Origin: Diphasiastrum complanatum
Taxonomy: Eukaryota > Streptophyta > Lycopodiopsida > Lycopodiales > Lycopodiaceae
DNA length: 64,000 nucleotides
Direction: 5' to 3'
Assembly (NCBI GenBank): GCA_029204225.1
Contig: CM055111.1
Span: forward strand, 1,808,421 to 1,872,420
In this document: positions 3,808-64,000 of the stretch, piece after piece
Layout of the letters: every line of letters begins with the position of its first letter
How positions within the stretch are numbered: the stretch's first letter is position 1
The notes under the pieces: model-generated
Told to the model about the DNA's origin: nothing
The model's input: only the letters and a program-made list of their open reading frames with translations
The model's database searches: none
Translations under genes and position numbers: made by a program

Positions 3808-4200
3808 TTAACTCGAATGAAAAGGATGTACTTTTGGTATATACAACGCACATGGTCGTGCTTGGCTCAAAACTTTTTGTACACATCTTGGTAGAGGATG
3901 ATTGCAGCTATAGTTGATGAATAGTTCTTCACCACATTTAATAGGTTTGATCACACAAACCATTACATATGTAGCTTTCACATATCTAGAAAAATGATCT
4001 TCTTTTCCATTGATGCATTTTTCAAAGTCACAATTAGTTAATGAAGGGTGACAAATGAAACTATTTATATATGTAGCGATGTTTTCATGTATTTTTGGAT
4101 GCCCATCGATGTACATACGATGTGCTTTTGAAACACTTTTTCCTTGCATGCGCCTCTCTTCCAAAGGACAAGCATTGGAATTTAAACCATATATTTGCAT
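3808..4200 (-). pseudogene. SET-domain-like C-terminal half, inverted
   Basis: A 130-codon minus-strand frame. ENIATYINSFICHPSLTNCDF resembles the SET motif in which a helix leads to F-I-N-H-S/C-x-P-N, and IKPIKCGEELFINYSC resembles the conserved I-x-x-GEEL-x-x-x-Y strand around the catalytic tyrosine. The first half of the domain lies tail-to-tail on the plus strand at 3414-3785, with only 22 bp between the two stops. An in-place inversion of the 3' half explains the arrangement. The host function of the parent gene cannot be inferred. Confidence 0.55.
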
Positions 4201-4222
4201 TCTTCATTGGTGGTGACATATA

Positions 4223-27521: not shown

Positions 27522-28747
27522 CTCCCTCTTCAACTTAACTTGCTAGTTTTACAACACTACTTTGCTCCAACCTAAGAATGATCTCCATCATGATAATAGA
27601 TCTCTTCTCAAGTTTTCTAGTATGTACAATATGAAGTACAACATAATTGGATATAGATAATAGTGTCCATATAGGATGCTTCACTATTTCTTACATCAAT
27701 CTTACATAGAATGGTGAACAAGATACATGTAAACGAACATAGAATCATAATGAAAGGATTCCTCCATGTATCCACCTTTGAATTCTCTGTAAAATAGTAG
27801 CAAACAAGTTGTAAATGAAAGTAACCAACAAGTGTTTGCATGCCTCCTCCACATTCCACTATGTCCATAGTGAATGCACCATGTATCTCCATGAATGAAC
27901 CTCCATCACCACCTTGCCTTTGTAGATCTCCAATCCATGAAAGCCCTTGAGCAAATGAATTCCAAAATGATGTGTTCTCTGCTCCATTTGAATGAGCAAA
28001 ACCTGAACTTGAAATACTTGAAGTATCTCCACAAGATTTGCATAAAATCCTTGATCCTACATTGTCAACAATTTGCCAATTTGCCGACACTAGGATGCTA
28101 GATCTTGAACTCTGCTCAAAAGTAAACATACTGGCCACTTCAATATCTTTCAATATTTGAATGAATGCATGTACTTGATCACAAAAACCATCAATCATAA
28201 CTATTCCATCTCCAAGATCCAAAGGATGCAAAACTATGGAACTAGTTTCATTGAATTTTGGCAATTCCAACACATTGACATGACAATGTTTATACATGAG
28301 ATTAAACAAGTAAGGTAGAGTAAAAGGACACTTCCTTGTTGCTCCAAGAACCTTACATGAACCCTCAAGAACCTGTAAAAACATATCCAAAATGATTTTC
28401 CCACGTGGCCCCCCTTTGATGCTTTTGACTAGCTTCCAATTGCTACTTGCCTCTTGGTGTTGATGAAGCAATTCAAGATCAACATCTTGATCTTCCAATA
28501 AAACATCAAGGACTTTGCATTTATAAACATCTTCAGATATGAACCTCTGAAGATAATACCTCTCAAACACATGACTAACATCCCACAATATCTCATCATT
28601 GCTTGATTTCAACCTTTCACTACAGTTAGTGAAAACAATGTCACCATCATAAACCAAAAGATAGACTTCTACAATTATATCCAACATGAAGTAGAGTAGA
28701 TGAAGTTGAGTATCAAACCTAATCAAATCAGCCCATTTGAGTTCAAA
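27522..28747 (-). other. Shared 3' module and unrecognised ORF (copy 2)
   Basis: A 369-codon minus-strand frame (28726-27617) lies inside the truncated LTR. I recognise no domain. Its 3' part (27522-28050) matches the module at 25501-25976: FTENSKVDTWRNPF here and FTESSKFEAWRNHF there, and KIDVRNSEASYMDTII against KIDVRNSVASILDTIL. It also contains VLHPLDLGDGIVMID, which echoes VLDPLDREDGLVLP in the upstream ORF, suggesting internal duplication. It could be a captured host sequence or non-coding filler of a non-autonomous retroelement. No Gag or Pol motif is visible. Confidence 0.5.
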
Positions 28748-29704
28748 CTAAACCTCAATGAGCTCATCAATGAGATCTTCCTTGCCTTGAAGAAATTGCC
28801 ACTTAAGTTGCTCCATGTACACTTCTTCATCCAACCTTTTGCCATCTTGATCATGCATGAACACTCCACCACAATCATAGAATCCTTTGAGTTGATGAAG
28901 AGATTTAAGATCCATGCCTTGGATCTTCTCAAGAGTCACTCTTCCTTTGCCCTTTCCTTCACAAGACTCCCTCTTAATGATCACACCACAAAAGTTAGCA
29001 ATCTCCCTCTTGATAGTTGCATCATAAGAAATGGAAGAATCACAAACATTAGAAGCCATGAAAAGAACACATAGTACCTTCAACATAAGAATGATTGAAG
29101 TACTTTTTCTTGTCAAACCTGGACTTCTAATCAATGATATAGGTAATGATAATGAACCCTCACTATCATTCATAAAAGCATCATTCAAGGTACATCCTAC
29201 TTTGAACACTTCACATTCATCTCTCTCTTTCTTGGACTCATCACATGAAGATGCAAAAGAACCATTTTCTTCAAACATGCTCAAAGCACCATCTTTTTCC
29301 AAATGAGTAAATAAGTCACTAGCAACAACCATTTCCAAAGATAAGTTTTCATCACCTTTATTGATGAAGTTAGCTCTCTTCTTACCTTTTCCATTTTTGC
29401 ACTTGCCATGTAGTTCCATTGAAGAGCCTCCAAGACTTGAAAGTCTATGAGTAGAAGAGTTCAAACATGATACTAATTTAGCACCACATGACTCCATTTG
29501 ACTAGTAGGTAGCACTAGTCCATCTTCACGATCCAATGGATCCAAAACATTGATCATAGATTTACCAAATGTTGCCAAGTTAGCACAACAATAACTATCT
29601 CCAAGAAGCTTTTTGCTTTTTACCACAACCCTAAATTGTAGCATTTTTTGCTTTTTGCAGAACCTTTGCGTTTTTCCCATTGTCACAACCCTAACTTGTA
29701 GCAT
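28748..29704 (-). other. Unrecognised 318-codon ORF in non-autonomous element
   Basis: This open minus-strand frame ends 22 bp before the next ORF on the same strand. It is low-complexity and serine- and lysine-rich, with GGSSMELHGKCKNGKGKKRA, a hydrophobic segment SIILMLKVLCVLFMASNVC and DEEVYMEQLKWQF near the end. The last recalls the copia RT phrase EEEVYMEQPE but has no RT context. The first roughly 25 codons are translated ACCCTAA-type repeat and unlikely to be real. Long frames in an otherwise decayed region are unusual, but I assign no function. Confidence 0.4.
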
Positions 29705-30240
29705 TTTTCGTGTTTTTCACAACCTTTGCGTTTTTCGCATTTTGAGAACCCTAAATCGTCGCATTTTTCGCTTTTTGTAACCACCTAAGACGACATTTTT
29801 TTGGGTTTTCACCAAAACCCACAACCGTCCCCAAAACCCATAACCCTAATTTGTCGCATTTTTCATTTTTCACTGTTACCCTAAAACTTCATATTTTTTG
29901 CCTTTTTCCACAGCCCTAAAAACTTCTGTTTGTCATTTTATACCGTTACCCTAAAACTTCACATTTTGCGCCTTTTTCCATAGCCCTAAAACCTTCGGTT
30001 TGTTATTTTTTACATTAGCCTCAAACTTCGCATCTTTTGTTTTTACCCTAATCCTACAATGTCGCACTTTTCGCTTTTGTACCGAAGCCCGAAATTGTCT
30101 CGTTTTTTGCATTTATAACCACCCTAAAACTTCGTATTTTTTGTTCTTCATCTACAACTTCAGGTTTTTCACTTTTTTGTGGACCTTCGATTTTTTCAGG
30201 ATTTAAAAAAAAAAAAAACCCGAAGTTACAAAAGAGTCCA
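29626..30240. repeat. Degenerate ACCCTAA-bearing tandem repeat
   Basis: ACCCTAA or GCCCTAA recurs near 29626, 29688, 29748, 29841, 29878, 29913, 29948, 29983, 30045 and 30121, each followed by a T-rich block such as GTCGCATTTTTCGCTTTTT. Spacing is about 35 bp in the middle and about 60 bp on the left. The hexamer resembles the plant telomere unit but is not contiguous. It ends in a 14-bp A run just before the gypsy Gag start, so it may be that element's leader. Confidence 0.7.
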
Positions 30241-31267: not shown

Positions 31268-31922
31268 TGTGAAAAATACAGATCCTAAGTGGATCTAAAC
31301 TCCAAGATCATTGGCTTGAATGCTTGCACTCCAAACTACATAAGCTAGGAATTGGCAACACATTCTATGCTACCTAGAATGCAAAGAACTTGATCAAAAA
31401 GCATTTATCACAAATGGAAACTTCCATAAACATCAAGTGCGGCCCAAAATAGCATTATACAGTCCATAATACATCAGCCTATCACTTTTGGAAAGCACCT
31501 AAGATCATACACAATAGCTTGAAGACAATACACACAACAATGCTCTCAATGGAGGAAGAAACAATGACAATGATCTATTGATCTCAATGAAACATACAAA
31601 AGGTTTCTCCAACCTGTTCTCCACGACTTCCCTACTATTTATGGATGAGGAAGATGACTCTCTCTCCTCTCTCTAGAAGGTACTTGACCCTAGATATTCC
31701 CTATATAGGAAAAATAGCTAAAAATGGCTTATATGACCAAAATACATCAAAATGGTCTCATTTTGAAGGGTATGAAGTTTGACACTTCATCATACTGAAA
31801 AAATACAGTAAATAAAAACATTGTGGCCTGGTTCACACGTGCAAAACTCCAGAACCAAAACTATTTACAATTTTAGCCAATTTAGGCCTCAAACTAGCTA
31901 GGAAATGTTGACAATTTTCACA
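31268..31922 (-). repeat. 3' LTR of intact copia
   Basis: 655 bp, TG...CA. In element orientation it starts TGTGAAAATTGTCAACATTTCC. The polyprotein stop TGA (31920-31918) lies within it. Confidence 0.96.
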
Positions 31923-34900
31923 CTCCCTCTTCAACATTGGATGCTAGTTTCAACATAGTCTTTGAGCACATTCCAAGATTAGATCTATGCATTAAATATA
32001 GGTCCTTTCCCAATGGTTTGGTGAAGATATCAGCCACACACTCCTTTGAAGAGACATGTTGAAGCTCCACCTCTTTGGCAATGACTTGATCTCTCACAAA
32101 ATGGTGAGCAATCTCAATGTGCTTGCTCCTTGCATGAAAAACAGGATTGCTTGCCAAGCTTTGGGCTGAAAGGTTATCACAAAATATGATTGGAGTCTTC
32201 TCTGGTTCCAGCAAGTGAAGATCCAATAACATCCTCTTGATCCAAAGAATCTCCTTGGTGCATGTTGTTAATGCCTTGTACTCGGCTTCGGTGGAAGATA
32301 GAGAGATAGTTGGTTGCTTCTTTGATAGCCATGAGACCACTCCATCTCCAAGATAGATTGCAAAGGCACTTGTTGACTTCCTATCCATTTGATCACCTGC
32401 AAAATCTGAATCTGAAAATCCACAAAGGTTAGGTGTAGTACCTCCATACAAGATGCCAAAATCTCTAGATCCCGAGATGTATCTAAGTACTCTCTTTCCT
32501 AGCTTCCAATGAGCCTCACTAGGATCTTGCATAAATTGACTTAGTTTACCAACCACAAAGCTTAGATCAGGTCTTGTGATGGTTAACCATATAAGAGATC
32601 CTATTAGCTTTCTATAGAGAGTAATGTCCTTGAAGGATCTTTCATTACTTCTTGTAGTTAGCTTTACATTTGATTCCATAGGAGTAGAAACAACTTTACA
32701 ATCTTCCATATGAAACCTTTTTAGAATAGAGTTAACATACTTTTCTTGACATATGAATGTAGATTTAGAAGTTCTAATAATCTCTATTCCTAAGATATAA
32801 TGAAGTTTACCAAGATCTTGAATTTCAAACTCTCTTTTGAGTGCCATCTTGATTTCATCTATATCTAGATTGTTACCACCACTTAAGATAATGTCATCAA
32901 CATAGATCAAAAGTAAAGTGATATCATTTTCATTCAATCTAAAGTAGAGAGAATGATCATACTCACTCATAACAAAGTTTTGAGAAAGTAAGAAGGAATT
33001 GAGCTTAGCATACCAACTCCTTGGTGCTTGCTTTAGCCCATACAAACTCTTTTGGAGATAGCACACATGATTAGGCTCATCATGTGAAACATAGCCCTCG
33101 GGTTGCTCCATGTAAATATCTTCTTCAAGATCACCATTCAAGAAGGCATTAGTAACATCCATTTGCCACATATCCCAATCATAAAGAGTTGCAAGAGAGA
33201 TTAGGATTCGAATAGTTACCATCTTTGCCACGGGTGCAAAGGTCTCATCATAGTCAATACCATATTCTTGAGCATACCCCTTTGCCACCAACCTTGCCTT
33301 GTACTTGTTGATTGATCCATCTTGATTTGTCTTGATCTTGAAGATCCACTTACAACCAATTGCCTTCTTGTCCTTTGGAAGCTTTACCAACCTCCATGTG
33401 TTGCTTTTGATGAGTGCCTGATGCTCATGATCCATGGCTTGGATCCATTCCTTCTTTTGAATTGCTTCACCTACACAAGTTGGTTCATCAAAAGAGGTAA
33501 GAAAAGCAAAGTTAGAGTTGTCCACCACTTGCTTTCCTTTTTCATCATAGGTTAGCCTTGATGGCTTAGCCCTTTGCCTTTGAGTCTTCCTTGAAGTTTG
33601 CTTTGGAGTGGCATCTCCATCTTCATCCAAGACATCTTGCACATCATGATGATTAGTAGGCACATCAACATCAACATCAACAACATTGGAAACATTCTCT
33701 TCATGAAAGATGACATCCCTACTTATGACAACTTTCTTTGTAGAAGGAATGTACACTTTGTAAGCCTTGCTTACTTCACTATAGCCAACAAACACACCCT
33801 TCTTTGATGAAGGATCTTCTTTAGTTCTATCATCAAGTGTGATATTGACAAAACATGTACATCCAAAGATCCTACAATGCTTGACACTCGGCCTTCTACC
33901 ATAAAGAACCTCATGAGGAGTTTTACCATCCAAGGAAGCACTTGTCCATCTATTACATAGATAGTTAGCACATGCTAAAGCTTCCCCCCAAAAAGACTTA
34001 GCAAGATTAGCATGTAGTCTCATTGCCTTGGCACATTCACAAAGGGTTCTATTCTTCCTCTCGGCCACTCCATTCTGTTGTGGAGTCCTAGGACTAGACA
34101 TCTCCCTCTTAATCCCATGTGCTATACAAAAGTCTTTGAACCTATTTGAGGTGTATTCCCCTCCATTATCAGATCTTAAGCATTTGATCTTTGTATTGAA
34201 TTGGTTTTCCATTTCATTCTTGAACTTGACAAATGCAGCAAACACTTCATCCTTACTTTTAAGAAGATAGATCCAAGTATACCTACTAAAGTCATCAATG
34301 AAAGTTGCATACATCTTTTCCCCACCATTGCTAGTTGTACTAGAAGAATGAATATCAGAATGCACAAGTTGAAAAGCTTCTTTAGATCTAGAAGTAGATC
34401 TAGAATAAGCAAGTCTATGAGATTTGGACAAGGCACAATGTTCACAAACACTATTGTTTGCAACAAGACTTTTAGGGAGACCAAGAACAAGCTCTTTCTT
34501 TGCCATTACCTCCAAAGATTTGAAGTTGGGATGGCCCAACCTCTTGTGCCAAACTTCTTGGTTTGTCAATTGCTCCCTAGCCATACATCCTTCATGATTA
34601 GAGATCACACATGCATCAAGCTTGAAAAGTTTACCATGCCTCCTACCTTGAGCAATCAAGGATCCACATTTACTTATCAAACATGCATCTCCAATGAACT
34701 CCACATCAAGTCCTTTGTCAATCATTTGACTTACACTAAGCAAATTCTTAGTGATTGAAGGAATGTACAAAACATTTTCAAGATTTGCTTTCTTATTTGT
34801 TGAAAGGGAAATAGGAATAGTGCCTATGCCTTTGATGTCACATTGACCATCATTTGCAGTGTAGATGATGTTACCTTCTCCCTCATAAGACAATAAGGAT

Positions 34901-35871
34901 GTAAAGTATTCCTTATGTCTTGTCATGTGAGATGAGGCTCCACTATCAATCCACCAAGGATCATTATCATCTATGTTGGCTAACAAACTTGAAGTCATAA
35001 CAAGTGATTCACATGTGTTATGTTCTTCCTCATCTATTGTAAGATTTCCTTGCCTCTCTCCTTGCTCTCTTTTCTTCTTATAACATTCATTTGCAAAATG
35101 ACCTTTTATCCCACAATAAAAGCACTTGAACTTTGACTTATTGTTCTTAGTAGAAGAGGAAGAGGAAGAGTGATCATCATGATCAAAGTTACCACCTTTG
35201 GACCATTTCCCTTTGCCTTTACCTTTGCCCTTGAATTTGCCTTTTGGGAAGAAAGCCTCTTCACCTCCACCTTGCAAGGATGCACCATCAAGCTTTGATT
35301 GCAACCTATGTTCTTCAGCCAATAAGATTTCTTGCAAGTCAACCACACTTGGCAAGACTCTTTGAATGGCAAAACTTTGCACAAGGTTAGCATGTTCATT
35401 TAGCAAACCATTCAACATAACTTGGACTATTTCACCATCTTTTATGTTCTCATCAATGCATGCTAAATCATCACTTAGGGACTTAACTCTCAAGATAAAT
35501 GCATGAGCACTTTCACCCTCTCTTTGCCTACTAGAAAATATTTGTCTCCTTAGGGTCAATTCCCTAGATGTGGACTTTGATTCAAAGAGCTTCTTTAAGG
35601 CATTCCATGCCTCACTTGCACTTTGACACTTTCCAACTTCCTTGAGAAGTTCATTTGTAACATTCATTTTAATGATATGAAGAGCCCTTTTGGCCTTCTT
35701 ATCAAACCTTTGTTGCTCTTGAAGTGTGAGAGGTCTCTCTTCAATTTCTGCAACTATGTCCATGAGTTCATTCAACTGAAGTAAGGACTCCATCCTCACT
35801 TTCCAAGTAGAGTAGTTTGATGAACTCAACCTTTCACTAGACTCTAGCATGATCCCACCATTGGAAGCCAT
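31918..35871 (-). CDS. Copia Gag-Pol polyprotein, intact
   Basis: A 1317-residue polyprotein carrying everything needed for copia retrotransposition. Gag (UBN2-like) spans about 1-210; the CCHC knuckle is C250, C253, H258, C263; the aspartic protease has WWIDSGASSHM at about 306-316. Integrase has the zinc region H442, H447, C476, C479 and the catalytic triad D506, D568, E604 with 35 residues between D568 and E604, then GVFVGYSEVSKAYK at about 692. RT has the active site YVDD at 990-993. RNase H has GFSDSDFAGD at about 1151-1160 and TEAEYKA at about 1194. No stops or frameshifts. It ends ...SNVEEGV, with the stop codon supplied by the LTR. The start at MASNGG is the first Met after the leader and matches sister Gags. 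Confidence 0.97.
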   Translation of the reverse strand: MASNGGIMLESSERLSSSNYSTWKVRMESLLQLNELMDIVAEIEERPLTLQEQQRFDKKAKRALHIIKMNVTNELLKEVGKCQSASEAWNALKKLFESKSTSRELTLRRQIFSSRQREGESAHAFILRVKSLSDDLACIDENIKDGEIVQVMLNGLLNEHANLVQSFAIQRVLPSVVDLQEILLAEEHRLQSKLDGASLQGGGEEAFFPKGKFKGKGKGKGKWSKGGNFDHDDHSSSSSSTKNNKSKFKCFYCGIKGHFANECYKKKREQGERQGNLTIDEEEHNTCESLVMTSSLLANIDDNDPWWIDSGASSHMTRHKEYFTSLLSYEGEGNIIYTANDGQCDIKGIGTIPISLSTNKKANLENVLYIPSITKNLLSVSQMIDKGLDVEFIGDACLISKCGSLIAQGRRHGKLFKLDACVISNHEGCMAREQLTNQEVWHKRLGHPNFKSLEVMAKKELVLGLPKSLVANNSVCEHCALSKSHRLAYSRSTSRSKEAFQLVHSDIHSSSTTSNGGEKMYATFIDDFSRYTWIYLLKSKDEVFAAFVKFKNEMENQFNTKIKCLRSDNGGEYTSNRFKDFCIAHGIKREMSSPRTPQQNGVAERKNRTLCECAKAMRLHANLAKSFWGEALACANYLCNRWTSASLDGKTPHEVLYGRRPSVKHCRIFGCTCFVNITLDDRTKEDPSSKKGVFVGYSEVSKAYKVYIPSTKKVVISRDVIFHEENVSNVVDVDVDVPTNHHDVQDVLDEDGDATPKQTSRKTQRQRAKPSRLTYDEKGKQVVDNSNFAFLTSFDEPTCVGEAIQKKEWIQAMDHEHQALIKSNTWRLVKLPKDKKAIGCKWIFKIKTNQDGSINKYKARLVAKGYAQEYGIDYDETFAPVAKMVTIRILISLATLYDWDMWQMDVTNAFLNGDLEEDIYMEQPEGYVSHDEPNHVCYLQKSLYGLKQAPRSWYAKLNSFLLSQNFVMSEYDHSLYFRLNENDITLLLIYVDDIILSGGNNLDIDEIKMALKREFEIQDLGKLHYILGIEIIRTSKSTFICQEKYVNSILKRFHMEDCKVVSTPMESNVKLTTRSNERSFKDITLYRKLIGSLIWLTITRPDLSFVVGKLSQFMQDPSEAHWKLGKRVLRYISGSRDFGILYGGTTPNLCGFSDSDFAGDQMDRKSTSAFAIYLGDGVVSWLSKKQPTISLSSTEAEYKALTTCTKEILWIKRMLLDLHLLEPEKTPIIFCDNLSAQSLASNPVFHARSKHIEIAHHFVRDQVIAKEVELQHVSSKECVADIFTKPLGKDLYLMHRSNLGMCSKTMLKLASNVEEGV

Positions 35872-37023
35872 GATTCTAATGTTTCTTCAACTTTTAGGTT
35901 CTGTCCTAAAGCACTTAGCACTCACTTTTCTCTCAACAAATGATAGATAAAGAGATCTATGAAGATTTAGGACCCTAAAACACTTCTATCTTGAACCTAG
36001 ATGGTTTCCAAGCATAGAAAGGAAGATTGAAACACATGCAACACTTTGCACACACTAAGAATGGATTACAGAATCAAACCAACCTGAACACACTCTTGCT
36101 TAAGCTCTCAAACTTTCCAGCAAGTGACCAAATCAAGTTATGGTGTGAAGAGTTACTTGCATTCTTAGAAAATACCCAAAACTAGGATGCCAAGATTACC
36201 TAGTAATGAACAAACTTGATCAACATATGATCAACACACTAAGATATTGATTCAACCTGTAAAACCACATGTAAACCACACTTCTAAAAGTTTATAAACT
36301 CCAGCAAGTGATAAATACAAGATTTAGAGGTGAATGAATGAGCACACTTAGTGAATCACAAGACTAGCTTCACTATCTTGTCAAATCTTGGTGTTTAGAT
36401 GTAGATCTAAGATCACTTCACATGAGAATGTTCCTCAACCTGTTAAGAACCTGAAAACACACTTGCATAATGGTTAACACCTTCCAGCAAATGCTCCAAT
36501 CAAATTACATAAGGAGAGTTACTTACATGCTCAACAAAGTACACCAAAATTTATGCCAAAATTGATGACAATCTTTACAATATGCTCTTCACAATGGAGC
36601 TTACAATATGTTCACCCAAAAAAGGGGATCTTTCATCCAAATGGGAGCTTTGCTCAGCCTTTAGGAGAATTACAACTCACTCAAAAGAGCATTTGTCATC
36701 CACTTAAGGAGAAGTTTCATCCACTTAAGGAGAGTGTTCATCCAAGAATGGAGATTGTCAACAATAGGATTGAAAAGAACATTGTTAGTATTGAATATGC
36801 ACAAGCCTCACAATCACAAATGATTAGGTGTTATGATCTGATCCAAAATAGTTTCTTTTCAGCCTCTGATCTTCAATAGACCTGAAATATGCTTTTGATC
36901 CACAAGTTCAACTCACAAAACAAAGGTTAGTAAGATTTGATCAACAAAGCAATGCAAAATCATGCTAGAACTTGATCAAACATCCAAATATCACCAAAAA
37001 TGGAATACTTACTGTAAATAGAA
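35872..37023 (-). other. Leader of intact copia
   Basis: About 1.15 kb between the primer-binding site and the Gag start. No ORF of note on the element strand. It contains repeated short words (ATCCACTTAAGGAGA and relatives on the plus strand at 36700-36735). It presumably holds the packaging signal and untranslated leader. Confidence 0.6.
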
Positions 37024-50501: not shown

Positions 50502-53500
50502 ATGGAGGCAAATGCTGGACTTGTTGCTGGATCTCATATCAGGAATGAGCTGGTCATCATTCGAGGAGAAGGGGTAAGATTATTCGTCTATTGATCATTC
50601 ATCCTTAATAAATCTGCAAGAGAAATCAAAGCAATATTTACTGTCTGTTTCAAGATATTTTGTCCGAATGGCCCTTTAAAACCTATTCGGTCTATCAAAT
50701 TAAATGTGGAATACATTCTTTATTACAATCGGGTCCTTTCGAAGCAGGCCATTCACTTTTCTGTGTTATAGCAATAATTTTCCTAAAGATGATCCAAATG
50801 ACATATCAGTGTCATGAATCAACAGAATTCTTCATCATAACCTTCGAACTCCTGGGATAATTATTCATGGACAAAATACAGGTAAAGCCTCTCCATCATG
50901 CGGATGGTCAGATTTGTCAAATGTGCGGTGATGATGTCGGCTTGAGCGCCGTGGATGGAGAGTTGTTTGTTGCGTGCGTTGAATGCGCCTTTCCTGTGTG
51001 CCGTCCTTGTTATGAGTACGAACGCAAAGATGGAAACCAATCTTGCCCTCAATGTAAAAGCAAATACAAGCGACAGAAAGGCAAGTTTATGGTACTAGCA
51101 TCGAGGGTATAATGAATATCAGATTGATCGGTAGATGATGGTTGCTAGTTTCGTCCTTGGCACTATTAATCTACATTTGAAAAAACAAGAGGACGTTTAA
51201 GCTAGCAATAAACTCCATCTGATAGAATTTGAATTTCAATTGAATTGATTATGACAGGGAGTCCCAGAGTTGAAGGGGATGAAGAGGAAGATGAGGTTGA
51301 TGATTTAGAATACGAGTTTAATATGGATGACGTGTGCAAGGTAGGCGGACAGCATGTTGCCCTTGCAATGCTTCACGGCCGCATGAGCTATGGTAGGGTG
51401 GCGGATGACGAGCATGAACTGCACATGATGTCTACCAGGCAAACACCATTGGGACTTCTTACAAACGCTCAGGTGGTATGTGCAGAGACTTAGTCAGATA
51501 TACCTTTCGTATGTTTAAATAGACGAAATATCTAGTACTCAATCAAGAGTATTCAAGTTTTGTGACGGAAATGTATCTTCAGTATATATAGACTAACAAG
51601 CAAAATCTTCTTCAGTGACGAACTGAGCACCAGAAAACCCTGCTGCAATGTTGGGGATCGAATAATGCTCTAACTTCAGCTCAGTGTCTTGAGCTTATAG
51701 CTACTTTATGTTTCCTTGAGGCCGCTCTTCGTGATTTATATAAGTGGCTAATTAAGAAAAGTGCTCAAGGAAACATAAAAGGCTAGCTACATGCATGGCT
51801 GAATCATATTTATGAAGTGAAAATCAGATGGAGGATGAATGTTTGTTGGTATGTGCAGGCTGCAGAAGAATTATCTCTTACACCTCCAGATCAACAGGCT
51901 CTAGTCTCATCTTCAGACTCAGGGGTCACTGGAAACGGCACTCAGCCTCTTCCTTATGTAGACTCCCCGCCAGCTCCAGGTTAGTCATGTCAAATAATTG
52001 TCGGATATCCAGAGATCTGTTCAGTTCGGTCTTTTGCCACTTTGTTGAACTTCACATCCAGTCAAAGAAAATGAAGAAGCAAGCTTAAGAGAATTCAGAC
52101 GCCAGTCGTTGTATCTTACATCAATTTCTATAGCATGCTGATGTTCAGCTAAAGCTCTGACCTCTTTAACTGGCTCTTTCAGTACCAGTAAGATCACTCG
52201 ATCCATCCAGGGATCCTTCTTCCTACGGCTATGGAACTGTTGCCTGGAAAGAGAGAGTGGAAACTTGGAAGTATAAACAGGACAAAATGCAACTGGCCGT
52301 GGCCGATGGCGTAGGCAAAGGTGGTGATGTATACGTACCGGTAGATTCTGAGGGTGCAGAAGAACCATTGTCAGTATTTGTACATGGACCGGCCTTGATA
52401 TCTTATATCTAGTGTACAATTCATAGTATATGTTAAGCGATGTAGACCTTAATTAGTATTTTTTATTGAGTCAATACGTGAGCATGTTCCTGGATTTCCG
52501 TCCGATCAGCTCATTGAGATGTTATTGATTCTGGCAGAATGGACGAATCAAGGCAGCCTTTGTCAAGGAAAGTTTCCGTTCCATCGAGCAGAATCAATCC
52601 CTACAGAATGTTAATCATCATTCGGCTTGTGGTGCTCGGTTTATTCTTTCGTTACCGTATCTTAAACCCTGTAAAAAATGCATACGCATTGTGGTTGACG
52701 TCAGTTATCTGCGAGATTTGGTTTGCTCTATCTTGGATTTTGGATCAATTTCCCAAGTGGTTTCCTATCAACCGCGAGACTTATCTGGACAGACTGTCCT
52801 TGAGGCAATGTTCTCCATCTATAATCATGATATCAGCTCACCTCTTGTTTGCGTTCTGCGCATGCACAGAGCTTCTTGATTAGAAAACGGTTGCTACTCT
52901 GATTGTCTTTTCATCTCATCAATAGTTTGAGAATAAATAATTCCACCTTTCAAAGATCTTATTGCTCGACAAGTTATATGAGAATGAGCTAAATGGTTTG
53001 AAAAAATTTCTACTGTAGGTATGAAAAGGAAGGCCAACCTTCTCAACTTGCTGCCATTGACGTATTTGTCAGTACTGTGGATCCTTCAAAGGAACCTCCT
53101 CTGGTCACATCAAATACTGTACTTTCAATCCTATCTGTTGATTACCCTGTGGAGAAAGTTTCATGTTTCGTTTCTGATGATGGTGCAGCTATGCTGACGT
53201 TCGAAGCACTTTCAGAAACATCCGAGTTTGCCCGCAAGTGGGTTCCGTTTTGCAAGAAGTTCTGTATTGAACCACGCGCGCCAGAAATGTACTTTGAGCA
53301 AAAGATCGATTACCTGAAAGACAAGGTTCAGCCATCATTTGTTAAAGAACGAAGAGCCATGAAGGTACATACTACAATCATATCATGTTTTCTTTGTTTG
53401 ATAGGCCCTATGTTGTGACCAAATTTATATATGTCGAACGAGGTGACTAGCTTTGGAAAGCTGGGAGTTTATCCAAGTAGCTGTTCTGAAACTCAGATTT

Positions 53501-56349
53501 CGAATAACGCAGAGAGAATATGAAGAATTTAAAGTTCGCATCAATGCATTGGCTGCAAAGTCTCAGAAGGTCCCTGAGGAGGGATGGACCATGCAAGATG
53601 GAACACCGTGGCCTGGAAATAATGCACGTGATCACCCAGGAATGATTCAGGCAAGCTACATCATGAAGTTCCTTTCATTTGACGTCATTGGACAATGTAT
53701 ATACGGAAGTGGTTCTTTGCATTCAAAATTCTGATTGGGACGTCTCTCTAACTTTCACGCTAATTCAGGTCTTTCTAGGACACAGTGGTGCTCATGATAC
53801 AGATGGGAATGCACTTCCTCGCCTTGTTTATGTGTCACGTGAGAAGCGACCCGGGTTCAATCACCATAAGAAAGCTGGTGCCATGAATGCCCTGGTGTGT
53901 ACTGTGTCATAGAAATTCTAATTTAAACAGTGTCTAGATAAATAGGTACATCAAGCAGATTGCAACTTGATTGTTTGCTTATTTTTTTGTAGCTACAATG
54001 GAAAACGGGCACAGTGATTGTTTGCCTGCCTCAGTGGGAGAATGACATGCTCATTGCTTACGTACAATGGTCACTACCTTTTGAGTTAAGCTAACTTCCT
54101 TCATCAATTATTTCGCTATGAACATTGCAGGTCAGAGTGTCCGCAGTTCTTACAAATGCCCCCTTTTTTCTCAATCTCGACTGTGATCACTATGTTAACA
54201 ACAGCAAAGCTCTTCGTGAAGCAATGTGTTTCATGATGGATCCTACTGTGGGGAAGCGAGTCTGTTTTGTACAATTTCCTCAGAGATTTGATGGCATTGA
54301 TTTAAACGATCGATACGCTAATCACAATACTGTCTTCTTTGACGTAATGTACAAAATCCTTTTCTTTGTCTTCCTTGAAGTTTGAGTTCTAATATCAGTC
54401 TTCATTCACGAAGAATGCTTGATCACCACTAATGTTCTTCATACGTTTGTCTCTTTTGGCTCACTAACTGCAGATCAACATGAAAGGACTGGACGGTATT
54501 CAAGGCCCTTTTTATGTGGGGACAGGATGTGTCTTTAGAAGACAGGCTCTCTATGGATATGAACCGCCTCCCAGAAAGAATTCCACAAAGAATGGTTGTG
54601 GTTGCTGTCCATCATGGTGTTGTCGTCCTCGCAAGATTAAAAAGAAACCAAGGTCAAAGCACTCAAGCAAAAAGAGAATTAAGAAAGTTGATACAACAAC
54701 TGTGCCACTTTTCAAAATTGATGATGACGTAGAAGAAGGTAATGCATGGCTCTAATTACTGATCAAGCAACGTATGAATATCACTTGGGCAATTCTGTAG
54801 GAGTGCATAGATAGAGATATACAAGAAAAGTGGCGTTCTACTGGCTCTTTCAATTGCTTCTCGTAATATAACCTCTTGCTAATTTGAAAGCATGCATTGA
54901 TTTCCAGGAATCACAGGTCTGCATGATGAAGAGACTTCTCTTCTCTCTCACAAAAATTACGAGAAGAGGTTTGGCCAATCCCCAGTGTTCGTAGCTTCAA
55001 TTTTTCTTGAAGATGGAGGTGTTCCTCTGTCTGCAAGCCCCGCCTCTCGGTTGAAGGAAGCGATTCATGTGATCAGCTGTGGCTATGAAAACAAGACAGA
55101 ATGGGGAAAGGAGGTAAGATCGTTTTTTGTAAAAAATTAAGGGCTTTTCTTTCGTCTGATCTCCCAGACTTCAATAATTACGTTAGGAATGGATAGCTCT
55201 TAACTTTAAACGTGGAGTTTCTGAATCATAAAAATATAGTGATGCCTTGCTGATGACCGACACTTATCATGAAATAAACTTCTGGTGCAGATTGGATGGA
55301 TCTATGGGTCGGTAACTGAAGATATCTTGACAGGTTTTAGAATGCATACAAGGGGCTGGCGATCTATTTACTGTATATCATCTCCATCTGCATTTAAGGG
55401 CTCTGCCCCAATAAATTTGTCGGATCGTCTGCAGCAGGTGCTGCGTTGGGCATTAGGATCAGTAGAGATTCTTCTTAGCAGGCATTGCCCGCTTTGGTAT
55501 GGATACACTGGTAATTTAAAGTTCTTAGAGAGGTTTGCTTACATCAACACTACAGTTTATCCTCTCACATCTATACCGCTGGTTGCCTACTGTACGCTAC
55601 CAGCCATATGTCTACTTACCAACAGATTCATTATCCCCACGGTATGTTCCAATTCTCAACAGAGTTTTGTTGCTTATTGCTTACTTGAAGTGAGACCTCT
55701 TGTGAACATTGCTATAATATACCTGCAAAACAAGCTGTAAATCACTCTGATTGTAAATTGGTTACAGATTAGCAACTTTGCCAGCCTTTGGTTCATTTCA
55801 TTGTTCATATCCATATTTGCCACTGGAATTCTGGAGATGCGCTGGAGTGGGGTTGGCGTAGAGGAATGGTGGAGAAATGAACAGTTTTGGGTCATTGGGG
55901 GCGTCTCCTCCCACTTATTTGCTGTCTTCCAGGGATTGCTGAAGGTCTTAGCTGGGATAGACACAAATTTTACAGTAACTTCGAAGTCTGGAGATGGTAA
56001 CAATTTCGGGGAGCTGTATGTCTTCAAATGGACGGCTCTTCTTGTTCCTCCCACCACGTTGCTTCTTATAAACCTTATTGGTGTAGTTGCTGGCATTGCA
56101 GATGCAGTAAACAATGGCTATCAAGCATGGGGTCCACTATTTGGTAGAGTTTTCTTTGCATTTTGGGTGATCGTTCATTTATACCCTTTTCTGAAGGGCT
56201 TGTTGGGCCGGCAGAACCGCACTCCCACAATTGTTGTCGTATGGTCGATACTTCTGGCTTCCATCTTCTCTCTACTTTGGGTACGCATAGACCCCTTCCT
56301 ACGCAATGTTCAAGGTCCTGATTTGCAGCACTGTGGCATCAACTGCTGA
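50502..56349 (+). CDS. CesA: Cellulose synthase catalytic subunit (CesA)
   Basis: Membrane glucosyltransferase that polymerises UDP-glucose to cellulose in plasma-membrane rosettes. Exons: 50502-50573, 50882-51080, 51258-51472 (or 51475), 51859-51979, 52183-52369, 52538-52804, 53019-53364, 53513-53650, 53769-53894, 54131-54343, 54474-54738, 54908-55113, 55291-55641, 55768-56349; 1095 residues, usual length. [12 protein letters not shown] fixes the start. RING cysteines are 36, 39, 56, 59, 64, 67, 79, 82; catalytic motifs are DDG at 407-409, DCD at 574-576, TED at 794-796 and QVLRW at 834-838. Membrane segments lie after residue about 280 and through the C-terminus, which ends QHCGINC. Introns 2, 6 and 8 begin with GC instead of GT. 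No stops or frameshifts. The N- and C-termini resemble primary-wall CESA3-type proteins; the isoform is uncertain. Confidence 0.97.
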
Positions 56350-57420: not shown

Positions 57421-57640
57421 TAGAAACAACTAAAGGTCGAAATACATATGTAATAGGTTCATCAAGGTCGAACTGCTATCTTGACCCTACAAGGTCGATA
57501 CAATTATTTCGCACCTCTTCGACCCATCAACCCAGGTCAATTCGAAATACATTTCAACCTCGAACTTTTTCGACCCCATATAGCAGTTTCAACCTTCATC
57601 TAGTTTCGACCCTACATCTGATTTTGACCCAACATGCAAA
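57421..57640. repeat. Clustered TTCGACC / GGTCGAA motif
   Basis: TCGACC, GGTCGA or near copies recur about ten times in 220 bp at irregular spacing (for example near 57437, 57468, 57491, 57519, 57569, 57606). They occur in both orientations. No coding frame. Confidence 0.5.
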
Positions 57641-57781
57641 ATTCTTCACAATTAGGCAGGAACTACAATGAAATTAAATCCAATGTGATATCCACTCATA
57701 CAACGACATGTAGTGCCTTAATCCATCTTGTAAATGCATTAGTTAATAGTTCTTTTAATCAAGAAACTAATTGCATAGTTA

Positions 57782-57783
<2 letters not shown>

Positions 57784-57825
<42 letters not shown>

Positions 57826-58125
57826 TATACTACTTGCTTGTGTCGTCGATGACGGGCAGTGGCGAACGTGCATCGATGCCAGATGAGCGCGTGCGTGCGT
57901 GTGTGCGTGCGTTCTTGTGTGCATGCATGCGTGTGCGTGTGTGTGTGTGTGTGTGTGCGCGCGCGCGCGTGCATGCATGCATGTGGGTGTAAGAGAGCAT
58001 GTGCATCTGCATGGCGAGCTGTTGAAGCTCAAAGGTTGTAGGGACAATGTTCATTGTGTGCCCGCCGATGGTGGACTGCGCGCATGCGTGTGTGCGTGTG
58101 CGTGTGCGTGTGTGTGTGTGCATGC
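57784..58125. repeat. (CA)n and (GT/GC)n complex, Z-DNA-prone
   Basis: A CA tract (57784-57822) is followed by GT-rich tracts (57887-57985 and 58080-58122). The CA and GT runs are mutually complementary. Positions 57917-57985 alternate purine and pyrimidine without a break, including (GC)n and repeated GCAT. Open frames here translate only the repeat. Confidence 0.93.
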
Positions 58126-59388
58126 GTGCCCTAATGGCTTAGGGTAAAGGATTAAAAAAGAATGCAAATCTTTGCATGATTTGTTGTGCCTAGAGAAAAT
58201 ACAACAAAAGCCAAACAAAGTCTTTATAAGTAATAAATGAAGTTATGTAATAGAAATTTGCCACAAAACAATCATTATCACTCATTATGGTTACGTTCAA
58301 GGGAATGATCAAGCAATTAGCTAAACATGACATGATAGGTATACAATTCGGTCAAAAGCAGAGTAGCCTATGCCATTGTTCCATATATGTGGGACACAAT
58401 AGAGATCAATGCATCATCAGATAATTGATGACAGACAAATCAATGGACAATAACCAAACTGGAAAATATACTCTAACAAAAGGAGTAAAAGAAGCCCCAA
58501 ATATGTAGAAGAGGTTTAAAGTAGTCCAATATTTTGTTTGGTGAACAACAAAAGAAAACACAATAAATGAAAGACATGCCCAAGATATATGGATAAAAGC
58601 TTTTGATTAAGAGTAACAACAATAATGATTCAAGAAAAAGTGTACTTTTTTTTTCGTCAATCCATCCTCCTTTCACGGTAGAGTGAATAGTTTATCTAAA
58701 TAAAACAAAAATTTGCTCTGAAGCTAACTTCCTAACTGCACATAGATCCATGTTAGCTAGTGGCTAGAGCAATGAGAGTGTCCAAGGCATAATTTTATGG
58801 TACTAAGTCAACTTGTATTAGCATCTTTATGGTTGTTGTTTGGCTACCAGATACTTTACATGGCAAGCTGAACTGCTCAAAGGCTGCTATTCATAGCCTG
58901 CGTTTGGCTCGAGACCATGCAATTGGTAGATGATGGCTGGATATATTATGATATCGGGAATAGCAAAACAGGTGATGCAGAAAGCAGATAAATTAAAGAA
59001 CTGTGCTATGGCTTGATGAATATGTATAATCAAAAGGAAGCTTATCTGAATCACTCAGCTGTAGATATAGTATCATCAGCCGTGGTTCCTTGTCAAGTAA
59101 TGCCTCAACTTGGTTGAGAGAGCGTGAAGTATAACCTCAATAGATTGGCTCTTGTCAGACTTGAGTGTGTGAGCAGAGGACTGGTTGCCTTATGCATCGC
59201 TATGGCTGAAAGATATGAACACGGTCCAATGCCAGGGTCCCCTTTCTTGGAAAGAAATGTTGTTTCAAGCTTCACCTCTGTGTCATTTACAAAAGTCTAT
59301 GCTCCGACTATTGGAAAAGCAGCCATATTGAATGCTAGCAGCCTACATGAATTGCTCGACTGCTCTGTCTGCATCAGTTTCATGTATA
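58126..59388. other. No recognised gene
   Basis: AT-rich sequence. A plus-strand frame at 59124-59393 (YNLNRLALVRLECVSRGLVA, then GKAAILNASSLHELLDCSVC) looks protein-like but matches nothing I recognise and is cut by the LTR remnant at 59389. It may be the broken end of an older gene or element. Confidence 0.35.
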
Positions 59389-59830
<442 letters not shown>

Positions 59831-60052
59831 CTCATTAATATGAACACAACAACAAAATGTGCGATTTCCGACACAAGGTTCCGACGGATTCAAAAAAATT
59901 TCATAATCCGTCGGAATCCGACATAATAATACGTCGAAATCCAACACAAAAAAAATGCTGGAAAAAAAAAATTTGTGGGATTTGTTTTTTTTTTTTTTTG
60001 CAGACGTCGGATTCTGACGGCCAATAAAAATGTGGGAATCCGACATCCCATG
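59831..60052. repeat. CACTA-like subterminal repeat piece
   Basis: It contains several GTCGGAATCCGAC, CCGTCGGAATCCGAC and TCGGATTCTGACGG words with A and T homopolymers, related to the palindrome arrays at 60845-61130 and 63730-64000. It abuts a copia fragment at 60053. Confidence 0.6.
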
Positions 60053-60300
60053 GCGTCTTTGTGGGATATCCCAGTAATGCACAGGGATACAAGGTCTATG
60101 ATCCCAAAAGTGGAAGGTGATGTCTTTGACGAGAATAGGGGATGGACATAGGATAGGAGCAACTGAAGAAGGGTCATCCGCAAGTGGTAATCATGGATGT
60201 TGGATGGGATGACCTGATCAGAGAAAGGGAGGAGGAGAATGGCAGGAAACGAGAGAACAGAACAAGAAGAAGAGGACCATTTCGGAGACTGTCACTTTTA
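60053..60300 (+). pseudogene. Copia integrase C-terminal fragment
   Basis: The plus strand reads GVFVGYPSNAQGYKVYDPKS then DVFDENRGW with stops, the integrase C-terminal marker of copia Pol. Its last part, 60158-60276, is a direct repeat of 63400-63518. Too short for function. Confidence 0.75.
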
Positions 60301-60840
60301 AATAGTGTGAGACTGAGAGCTCTTGAGGTTTGAATGAAGATCATAACCAGCTCCACCATCAAAGATGTAGAGCTACCACTTTTTCTCACTGATTGATCCA
60401 GTATGGCTATCTTGTTGCTACTCCCTATCGATCCATGAAGGGTAATCCATCGTTGCCTGATACATGTAAAATGAGATATCAGCTAGAGAAAGCTAGTCAA
60501 GCGTGCTCGATATGATGGCATTTCTGTTGAAAATCAGATTTCAAAATGAACTTTGAAGAGTGCCATTGACTCACTATCTCCGTTGGAAGCTTGAGATGTC
60601 TTGGCTATGGGGTGCTTAATTATCTCTGCTCTATGAGTTAGAACCCAGTTTTCCTTGCAAGATATTTGGAGAGCTAGCCTACCATCGTTGCTAGATGAGT
60701 GAGCCATCATATGCACTCAAAAATAGGTATGGCTTTATCTATTTTCAGTTCGTTCATCAATGTTATTTTTTGTAATCATTTATTTTTTGTATGCACTTCA
60801 AATTCTTATCGATTGGAGTATGTTTGGTTTTTGCCACGAT
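60301..60840. other. No gene seen
   Basis: Unassigned sequence between a copia fragment and a palindrome array. No ORF with family features. Confidence 0.4.
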
Positions 60841-60844
60841 TTTC

Positions 60845-61311
60845 CTTTTGCCACGTGGACATCAGATTCGAATGGTCCGGCCACGTGGATGTCGGAATCC
60901 GACGTCCACGTGGTAGAAAAAAAAAAGTGACGTCCATGTGGCAGGAAAAAAAAAAATTCATTTTTTTTTTCACGTGGACGTCGGATTACGACGGCCCCGC
61001 CACATGGATGTTGGAATCCGACGTCCACGTGGCAAGATAAAAAAAAAAGAGAAATTTAATTTTGTTTTTTTCATTTTTTTTTTCCACGTGGACGTTGAAA
61101 TCCGACGTCCACGTGGCATGTTCTCCGGTTCATTTTTACCAACTGGTTGCCGGTTTTGGGCTTGGCGTCGGATTCTAATGGATTTTAAATGCGACAAATT
61201 CTGACGACCTTATAGCGACACATTTTTTGACGCCCGCATCAATTCAAAAAAAAATTAAAATGCGATTTCATGTCGGAAATCCCGTCGAAAATCGCGGCAA
61301 TTCTTGTAGTG
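60845..61311. mobile_element. CACTA-like terminus with palindrome array
   Basis: Near-palindromes of about 33 bp, such as CCACGTGGATGTCGGAATCC + GACGTCCACGTGG (60881-60913), recur with GGAATCC-type centres and ACGT cores, separated by runs of A or T. The segment ends at 61311; its reverse complement starts CACTACAAGAATTGCC, matching the CACTACAAGAA-type inverted terminus of plant CACTA elements. Subterminal repeats of this kind bind transposase in that family. The other terminus was not found. Confidence 0.6.
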
Positions 61312-61849
61312 GAAGCATCGGAGCTTATAAGAGAAACTCCCTCAAGATCCTGCTTACAAGACAAAACACAATAGAAAACACACTATGGAGCAACCGCCCA
61401 ACCAAATAGAAGCAACCAATCAACTCTAGAAGGTCCACCCCCAAGCCAAGGAATAGGAGACATGAATATAGAGTGAAATCCTGGCAATAAACCATCCACA
61501 TATATGAGGAGTAGGGTGAGTTTGGTCTCTTCTTATAAAGCCATGAACCACCTATGCACACAGACTGCAAGGTCCTAACTCTCCTATACTTAGAGTCCTC
61601 CAGAATAGATTCTCTATGCATAGATCCTCTATTCATAGAATTGCTATTGATACTCTACACATGCCTTGACTGTCCCAAACCTTGTACTAACTTCATTTAG
61701 TGTGTTCTGGGCCTCACAAGGATATTAGTTACTTTCAGGTCACGTCCAGTATGACGTGGCATAACTAACAGCTTGATTTACTGGAGTACCGTGTATCCAA
61801 GACTAGGAGTATACTGAATCCTACTTACTGGCCATGGACATAACATTCT
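61312..61849 (-). repeat. LTR of a minus-strand retroelement
   Basis: On the minus strand the purine tract GTTTAAGGAGGGAAGAA is followed at about 61849 by TGTTATGTCCATGGCC, a typical polypurine-LTR junction of plant LTR elements. CTTTATAAG on the minus strand near 61540 is a likely LTR TATA box. The inner end is uncertain because a CACTA-like terminus abuts at 61311. Confidence 0.55.
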
Positions 61850-63399
61850 TCCCTCCTTAAACTGCTTCTATCCTTAGAAGCTCTTTAAACAGGAAAGAAT
61901 AACAAGAACAGTTCTTTTAACTCTCAATATCAACCTAGAAAATCATTATCCTTAGTCTAACTTTTACATCAAACAAGTACTCAGAGATAATCCTATTTTC
62001 CAAGTGATAATCTCTGCACTGGAGTACAACTCAGGTTTAAAAAGTACACTAAGCGATAAATTTTTCCATCTGGGTTATATTCACCTCAAGTTAGTAACAT
62101 CACCTTCATGCAAAGCACTTACATGAAACACTGGGTGAAATAACCGAACTTAAGATATTAAAGTTAAAGAAATAATAAAATAATTATAATTACAGTTTGA
62201 AATTATTCACAACTCTGATAGATAATTCATAAGCTTTCAAGTACAAATATCCTTAGATTCCAAATTCTAGGATATGATAATTCATTCAATTAGAATCTCT
62301 AGGAGAATCATTAAGATATAGAATGATTAAAACTCAACTCTGAGTATCCCAGATTCTTTTTTGAGTTAAATGCTCCTGTTTTTAGCACCAAATGCAAGAA
62401 AATAGCATTCATTCATCCTAATAGACTTGTCTGTCTCCTATGATAACTGGAGATCCAATCAAATGAAAAATTATACTCAAGCATCTGCAAACCATAAACT
62501 GTAGTAGAATAGAACCCACTAGACTAATTAAATTCTCCACAAATAAGATAACTTATCTTGTGAGAATATATGTGAGATCCATAGGCTCTCAATAAGATAC
62601 TGGAGTAGAGAAATTCAAAATAATGATTTAAATGCTTACTCAAATAATAGATCAAATATCAATCATCACACTTAAGAATCGTCAAGATTCCTTATAATCC
62701 TCTGATAACAATTAAGTATCTATTTATGATCCGTCAACCATAAATATTTAGACTCGTATGATTCGTCAATCATAACTTTCTGGAATCCAAAATCATACTT
62801 AATCATCTACAAAATATTGGAGTATATGTCCAACATAACTCAGGAAAAGTAAGAGTCATTCCAAAATCTTTCCATTAAGAAAATACTGGATTTAGGAATA
62901 CTTTTAAAATATGATTCTTTAACTGAAGTGCAAGATTCAAGTTCTATAAACAATTGGTAATTAAAGATTGAACGCATACCAAAATGACAATCATCTTCAG
63001 TTACAAAAACTTTAGATTACCGTCTAGAATCAACTCTAGATGTCCAAAGTCCCGCTGAATATCAATTCAAATATTATTCTTGGATTCATTATGATTCATT
63101 ATCCAATTGAGCACTCTGGGATACAATCACTAATGAGCTAAGTTCATTCCTTAACTAAGGAATACTCTATCCCAAGAATACTGTATATCCAATGCACATA
63201 ATTTTAACTGATGAACCTAATGATTCACTAATCATATTGTGTCTGACAAGCAATATAAATAAAAAACTATCAGTTTCTGGTGAATCCTTATCACACTGAT
63301 CCTTTTTTAATTAACTTCATCCTGGAGTAATCAACTACTCAAGTTAATTGCCAATGATTCAGAAATCCCAAATGTATAGATGAAGAATTCAATTATACT
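61850..63399. other. AT-rich, no gene
   Basis: About 1.5 kb of AT-rich sequence without frames above 60 codons of interest. From its position inside the LTR at 61849 it may be the 3' internal part of that element, now non-coding. Short words such as GATTCATTAT and AATCATTA recur. Confidence 0.4.
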
Positions 63400-63735
63400 A
63401 GCAACTGAAGAAGGGTCATCCGCAAGTGGTAATCATGGATGTTGGATGGGATGACCTGGTCAGAGAAAGAGAGGAGGAGAATGGCAGGTAACGAGACAAC
63501 GGAACAAGAAGAAGAGGATGGAGGGACGACAATACAAGAGATGCTACAAGAACGCAGGAGGTCGACCAGGGAAAGGAGCCCATCGAAGATATATGTAGAC
63601 ATGGGGCTCATAGGGCAGAAATAGGAGATTGGAGATACAATCATAGAACTTGACCTGGTCAAACGCCAAGGAGAGCACTGAGTGGAATCATTGGAAAGGA
63701 GCCATGAAAGAAGAACTGAAATCGATCCATGCGAC
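63400..63735 (+). pseudogene. Copia integrase-RT linker fragment
   Basis: The plus strand reads QERRRSTRERSPSKIYVDMG, the basic linker before copia RT, and after a stop and frameshift WNHWKGAMKEELKSIHA, the start of RT. The first 119 bp duplicate 60158-60276. It is interrupted at 63735 by a palindrome array. Confidence 0.75.
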
Positions 63736-64000
63736 GTTGGATTCCGACGGCCCGACCACGTGGACGTCGGATTTCGATGTCCACGTGAAAAAAAAAACGA
63801 AAAAAAAACTCCTTTTTTTTCCCCTGCCACATGGATGTCGGATTCCGACGTCCACGTGAGAAAAAAAAATGAAATTTTTTTTCCTGCCACATGGACGTCA
63901 CTTTTTTTTTTTCTGCCACATGGACGTCGGATTCCGACATCCATGTGGTTCCGACATCCACGTGACCGGACCGTCGGAATCCGATGTCCACGTGGCAAAA
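63736..64000. repeat. Second palindrome array
   Basis: The same CCACGTGGACGTCGGATTCC-type palindromes as 60845-61130, with A or T runs between them, continuing past the window end. It is inserted in copia RT sequence right after codons for SIHATLD. Confidence 0.75.

Follow-up and report, generated by a model that had tools for sequence, protein, structure and literature searches.

The analysed window is a 64-kb stretch of DNA in which a gene on the plus strand, with its ATG at position 50502 and its stop codon ending at 56349, is, judging by its sequence, a complete plant-type CesA. Its 14 coding exons are separated by 13 introns, counted within the coding part of the gene, and translation of the joined exons yields a protein of 1095 aa with a terminal stop only. 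The protein matches the Pfam families Cellulose_synt (PF03552), with 1335.8 bits and 719 of the 722 profile positions covered, and zf-UDP (PF14569), an N-terminal zinc finger, with 136 bits. Among PDB sequences, 16 distinct ones were matched by phmmer at E up to 0.001, the best of which is 8vhz_A (1775 bits), presumably a plant CesA chain, whose residues 1-1084 align with residues 1-1095 of the query, i.e., over its whole length. The CesA motifs DDG, DCD, TED and QVLRW are all found in the translation, and the gene is presumably moss-like. All 13 introns end with AG, and 10 of them (all except introns 2, 6 and 8) are of the GT-AG type, including intron 5 at 52370-52537. Intron 3 has tandem donors 3 nt apart (CAG|GTG|GTATGT at 51473-51478), by which one valine would be omitted or added.

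Other features of the window include a copia-type retrotransposon on the minus strand at 31921-35886, with gag, integrase and RVT_2 domains (Pfam) in a single open frame of 1322 aa; because one open frame runs across these domains, it is perhaps a young insertion. Also on the minus strand, a 131-aa ORF at 3811-4203 shows a partial match to the SET domain (27 bits against a Pfam cut-off of 22.4), and two adjoining frames of 376 and 322 aa at 27620-28747 and 28751-29716 match no Pfam family at E up to 0.001. Comparison within 57500-64000, the only part covered for repeats of this kind, revealed a 124-nt duplication (60153-60276 and 63395-63518, 94% identity, 3242 nt apart) and, at 60867-61119 and 63742-63998, seven copies of a palindrome roughly 50 nt long, one of which contains CCACGTGGATGTCGGAATCCGACGTCCACGTGG. 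Six of the seven copies are 64-80% like the reference copy and several lie beside poly-T or poly-A runs; these units are perhaps a short inverted-repeat element.

The preliminary description of this DNA had placed GC donors at 51081, 52805 and 53651, and both these positions and their exon contexts are confirmed. Intron 2 (51081-51257, plus strand, 177 nt, phase 1) has the donor AAAG|GCAAGT, intron 6 (52805-53018, plus strand, 214 nt, phase 2) TGAG|GCAATG and intron 8 (53651-53768, plus strand, 118 nt, phase 0) TCAG|GCAAGC. Each starts with GC and ends with AG, as GC-AG introns of the U2 type do, and their A-T content of 61-66% compares with 61-67% in the ten GT introns of the same gene. The description had also held that the GC reading keeps the conserved protein, which agrees with the alignments to three PDB chains (8vhz, 8vht and 8vi0), the three of the 16 matched sequences whose alignments were printed: all three junctions are crossed without a gap. 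At intron 2, where the CesA protein reads KGSPRVEG, 8vhz, 8vht and 8vi0 have RGSPRVEG, KGSPAILG and KGSPRVEG, respectively; at intron 6, where it reads LSLRYEKEG, they have LALRYDREG, LALRYDREG and LSLRYEKEG; and at intron 8 GMIQVFLG is found in the CesA protein and in all three chains. Sequence and protein continuity together support the GC-AG reading of introns 2, 6 and 8, in a CesA gene that is intact. An alternative is that this copy of CesA is in decay, or that base errors are present in the assembly, so that the C at +2 is damage. In its favor, some residues near conserved motifs differ from those of the three aligned chains, much of the 64-kb window is retroelement sequence, and the moss P. 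patens has three CESA pseudogenes in addition to seven genes (PMC3400098). A frame that is open over its full length, the presence of DDG, DCD, TED and QVLRW and a Pfam match spanning 719 of 722 profile positions speak against it, and three errors would be unlikely each to give a C at the same donor position; we regard it as improbable.

A strong remaining match to the 5' end of U1 is typical of GC-AG introns of the U2 type. The donors of the CesA gene are given here by their predicted pairing with U1, calculated as the energy of a bare RNA duplex with the U1 sequence and with register slip permitted (as at introns 3 and 10); such energies take no account of proteins, U6 or base modifications. 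The GC donors of introns 2, 6 and 8 are predicted to pair at -5.9, -3.1 and -6.3 kcal/mol, respectively, and the ten GT donors at -3.0 to -9.7 kcal/mol. Donors 2 and 8 thus fall near the median of these ten, while donor 6 lies at the weak end alongside the GT introns 5 (-3.2 kcal/mol) and 10 (-3.0 kcal/mol), so that the remaining match in the predicted duplex is fair at introns 2 and 8 and weak at intron 6. In a ranking, irrespective of frame, of every GT or GC within each intron and the exon before it, donor 2 came second of 47, donor 6 fifth of 43 and donor 8 first of 19, compared with first to twelfth for the ten GT donors in their own sets, six of which came first. The site that outranks donor 2 is a GT at 50882, right where exon 2 begins. 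With T instead of C at +2, the computed energies would be -10.6, -6.9 and -11.0 kcal/mol for introns 2, 6 and 8, i.e., the C costs each donor about 4 to 5 kcal/mol. Donor 6 (GCAATG), the weakest of the three, is without G at +5; since introns 10 and 11, which have GT donors, carry AATG as well (GTAATG), this pattern is not peculiar to a GC site. A register with a bulge at +5 is not favored as a rescue of donor 6 (-2.2 kcal/mol versus -3.1 kcal/mol for AG|G alone).

The preliminary description had further stated that GT alternatives fail by shifting the frame or, at intron 2, by needing a weak donor and a different acceptor; the argument from frame is wrong in general. The enumeration took in every GT or GC donor between 150 nt before each site and nearly the end of the intron, combined with every AG as far as 150 nt beyond the intron, and retained the pairs that keep the frame and introduce no stop; 76, 28 and 29 such GT-AG pairs were found for introns 2, 6 and 8, respectively. 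At least one junction might be spliced from a GT donor, leaving fewer than three GC-AG introns, and the chief case is intron 2 read as 51085-51261 on the plus strand (CAA|GTTTAT...GGGAG|T), whose product KGNPRVEG preserves length and frame with a single change of S to N. Its donor is predicted to pair with U1 at -1.4 kcal/mol only, its acceptor is GGGAG, and the serine is retained in all three aligned PDB chains. At intron 6, the pair 52796/53018 loses three residues and its donor pairs at +0.7 kcal/mol; a GT at 52721 that keeps the frame exceeds the GC by a small margin (-3.4 versus -3.1 kcal/mol), and GT sites at 52629 and 52632 are also stronger (-3.8 kcal/mol) when frame is disregarded, but use of 52721 would delete 28 residues. 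At intron 8, the in-frame reading 53684-53768 on the plus strand (GAC|GTCATT, -0.9 kcal/mol) inserts 11 aa that interrupt GMIQVFLG, a stretch continuous in the three aligned chains, and the pair 53628/53778 (-1.8 kcal/mol) loses eleven residues. For the strongest GT sites that keep the frame, the energies are -5.1, -3.4 and -4.1 kcal/mol at introns 2, 6 and 8, so that the GC donor pairs better than any of them at introns 2 and 8. Splicing from a GT donor at one or more of the junctions is, on this evidence, highly improbable.

How unusual three GC donors in one gene are depends on the rate assumed. GC-AG introns average about 1.2% of plant introns (PMC6310983), and annotated rates in five plants range from 0.52 to 4.03% (PMC10668435); the upper value is that of Medicago truncatula and may be too high because of the low RNA support for such sites there (PMC6310983). 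For one named gene, the probability of at least three in 13 introns is 3.9e-5 at 0.52%, 4.5e-4 at 1.2% and 0.014 at 4.03%, and 0.0018 to 0.0084 under an assumed over-dispersion between genes. A model that treats introns as independent and assumes 30,000 genes, with intron numbers geometrically distributed around a mean of 4 or 5, predicts 1.7 to 5.4 genes carrying at least three GC donors at rates of 1.0-1.2% and 12.2 to 22.5 at 2%, but only 0.09 to 0.21 genes with exactly 13 introns and at least three GC donors at 1.0-1.2%. The cluster had been called striking, which holds for a single gene named in advance (P about 5e-4) but not genome-wide, where 1.7 to 5.4 such genes are expected per 30,000; overall, the cluster is mildly unusual. 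Genes of this kind should be met occasionally when many stretches of DNA are read. In the 64-kb window, a comparison of nine ORFs and the CesA protein with Pfam, the nine being chosen from among the listed ORFs of at least 70 aa, and of at least 90 aa between 30000 and 45000, revealed no further host gene with introns from which a local GC-AG rate could be taken.

The suggestion that the three donors may mean regulated splicing finds no backing in these results, given that the pairing of donors 2 and 8 is close to the GT median and that retention leads to a premature stop. In a scheme of this kind, the GC donors would be conserved as weak sites, and intron retention with premature stops would tune the CesA output. 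If intron 2, 6 or 8 is retained, translation does end early, at residue 101, 380 or 543, respectively, by which output would be lowered and no long variant made, yet a stop upon retention is expected of most introns. Donor 6 is weak, ranking fifth of 43, but GT introns 5 and 10 are about as weak (-3.2 and -3.0 versus -3.1 kcal/mol), so weakness is not specific to GC donors, and donors 2 and 8 are near the middle of the GT donors of the gene. A review associates bulge registers with U1 with more alternative donor choice (PMC9311317), although such a bulge is unfavored at donor 6. The counterparts of A. thaliana GC-AG sites are GC-AG in 9830 aligned sequences and GT-AG in 13,045, so that conservation of GC donors is common in plants (PMC7072748); on the other side, the GC donor of SYMRK intron 12 is 99.9% spliced in Parasponia (PMC10668435). 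Taken together, regulation through these donors is unlikely. Less likely still would be an old set of GC donors conserved in the CesA genes of the lineage, with output dependent on splicing and intron 6 as the switch. A query with exon 13 (117 of the 1095 aa) against viral and prokaryote contigs, collections in which few relatives would be expected, gave 15 and 64 pattern matches, respectively, and no confirmed relatives. Among the literature matches listed, with titles and starts of abstracts, none was on CesA GC-AG introns or moss GC-AG rates.

We consider it likely that the three are ordinary U2-type GC-AG introns of a working CesA gene that arose by T-to-C drift at +2 and are mainly constitutively spliced. 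At each of the three introns, a GT donor would have been turned into a GC donor by a T-to-C change at +2, the rest of the donor (AG|G.AAG at introns 2 and 8) would still be recognised, with mainly constitutive splicing as the outcome, and the presence of three in one gene would reflect chance accumulation, possibly aided by a GC-AG rate that is slightly higher in this lineage. That the junctions yield an intact coding sequence of 1095 aa in agreement with the aligned PDB chains argues for ordinary introns. Against them stand the value of P = 4.5e-4 for a named gene, the few 13-intron genes of this kind expected, the weakening of each donor by the C at +2 and the lack of G at +5 in donor 6. By its modeled pairing, intron 6 is the fairest candidate for leaky splicing among the three.

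Three GC donors in one gene are mainly an issue of annotation, as gene finders that accept GT only would break the CesA model at three points. Should conservation of the donors be demonstrated, this CesA gene would offer a convenient case for asking if GC donors are maintained for regulation or just tolerated.

Like plant GC-AG introns of the U2 type, introns 2, 6 and 8 have GC and AG termini, share AG|GCAAG in two of the three cases (introns 2 and 8) and are AT-rich. They are unlike the typical members of this class in that three of them occur in a single CesA gene and in that intron 6 has GCAATG without G at +5. A further parallel is the SYMRK gene of dicots, whose intron 12 also has a GC donor within a working plant gene. 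Unlike CesA, SYMRK has one GC intron, which is common across dicots with GT exceptions (PMC10668435).
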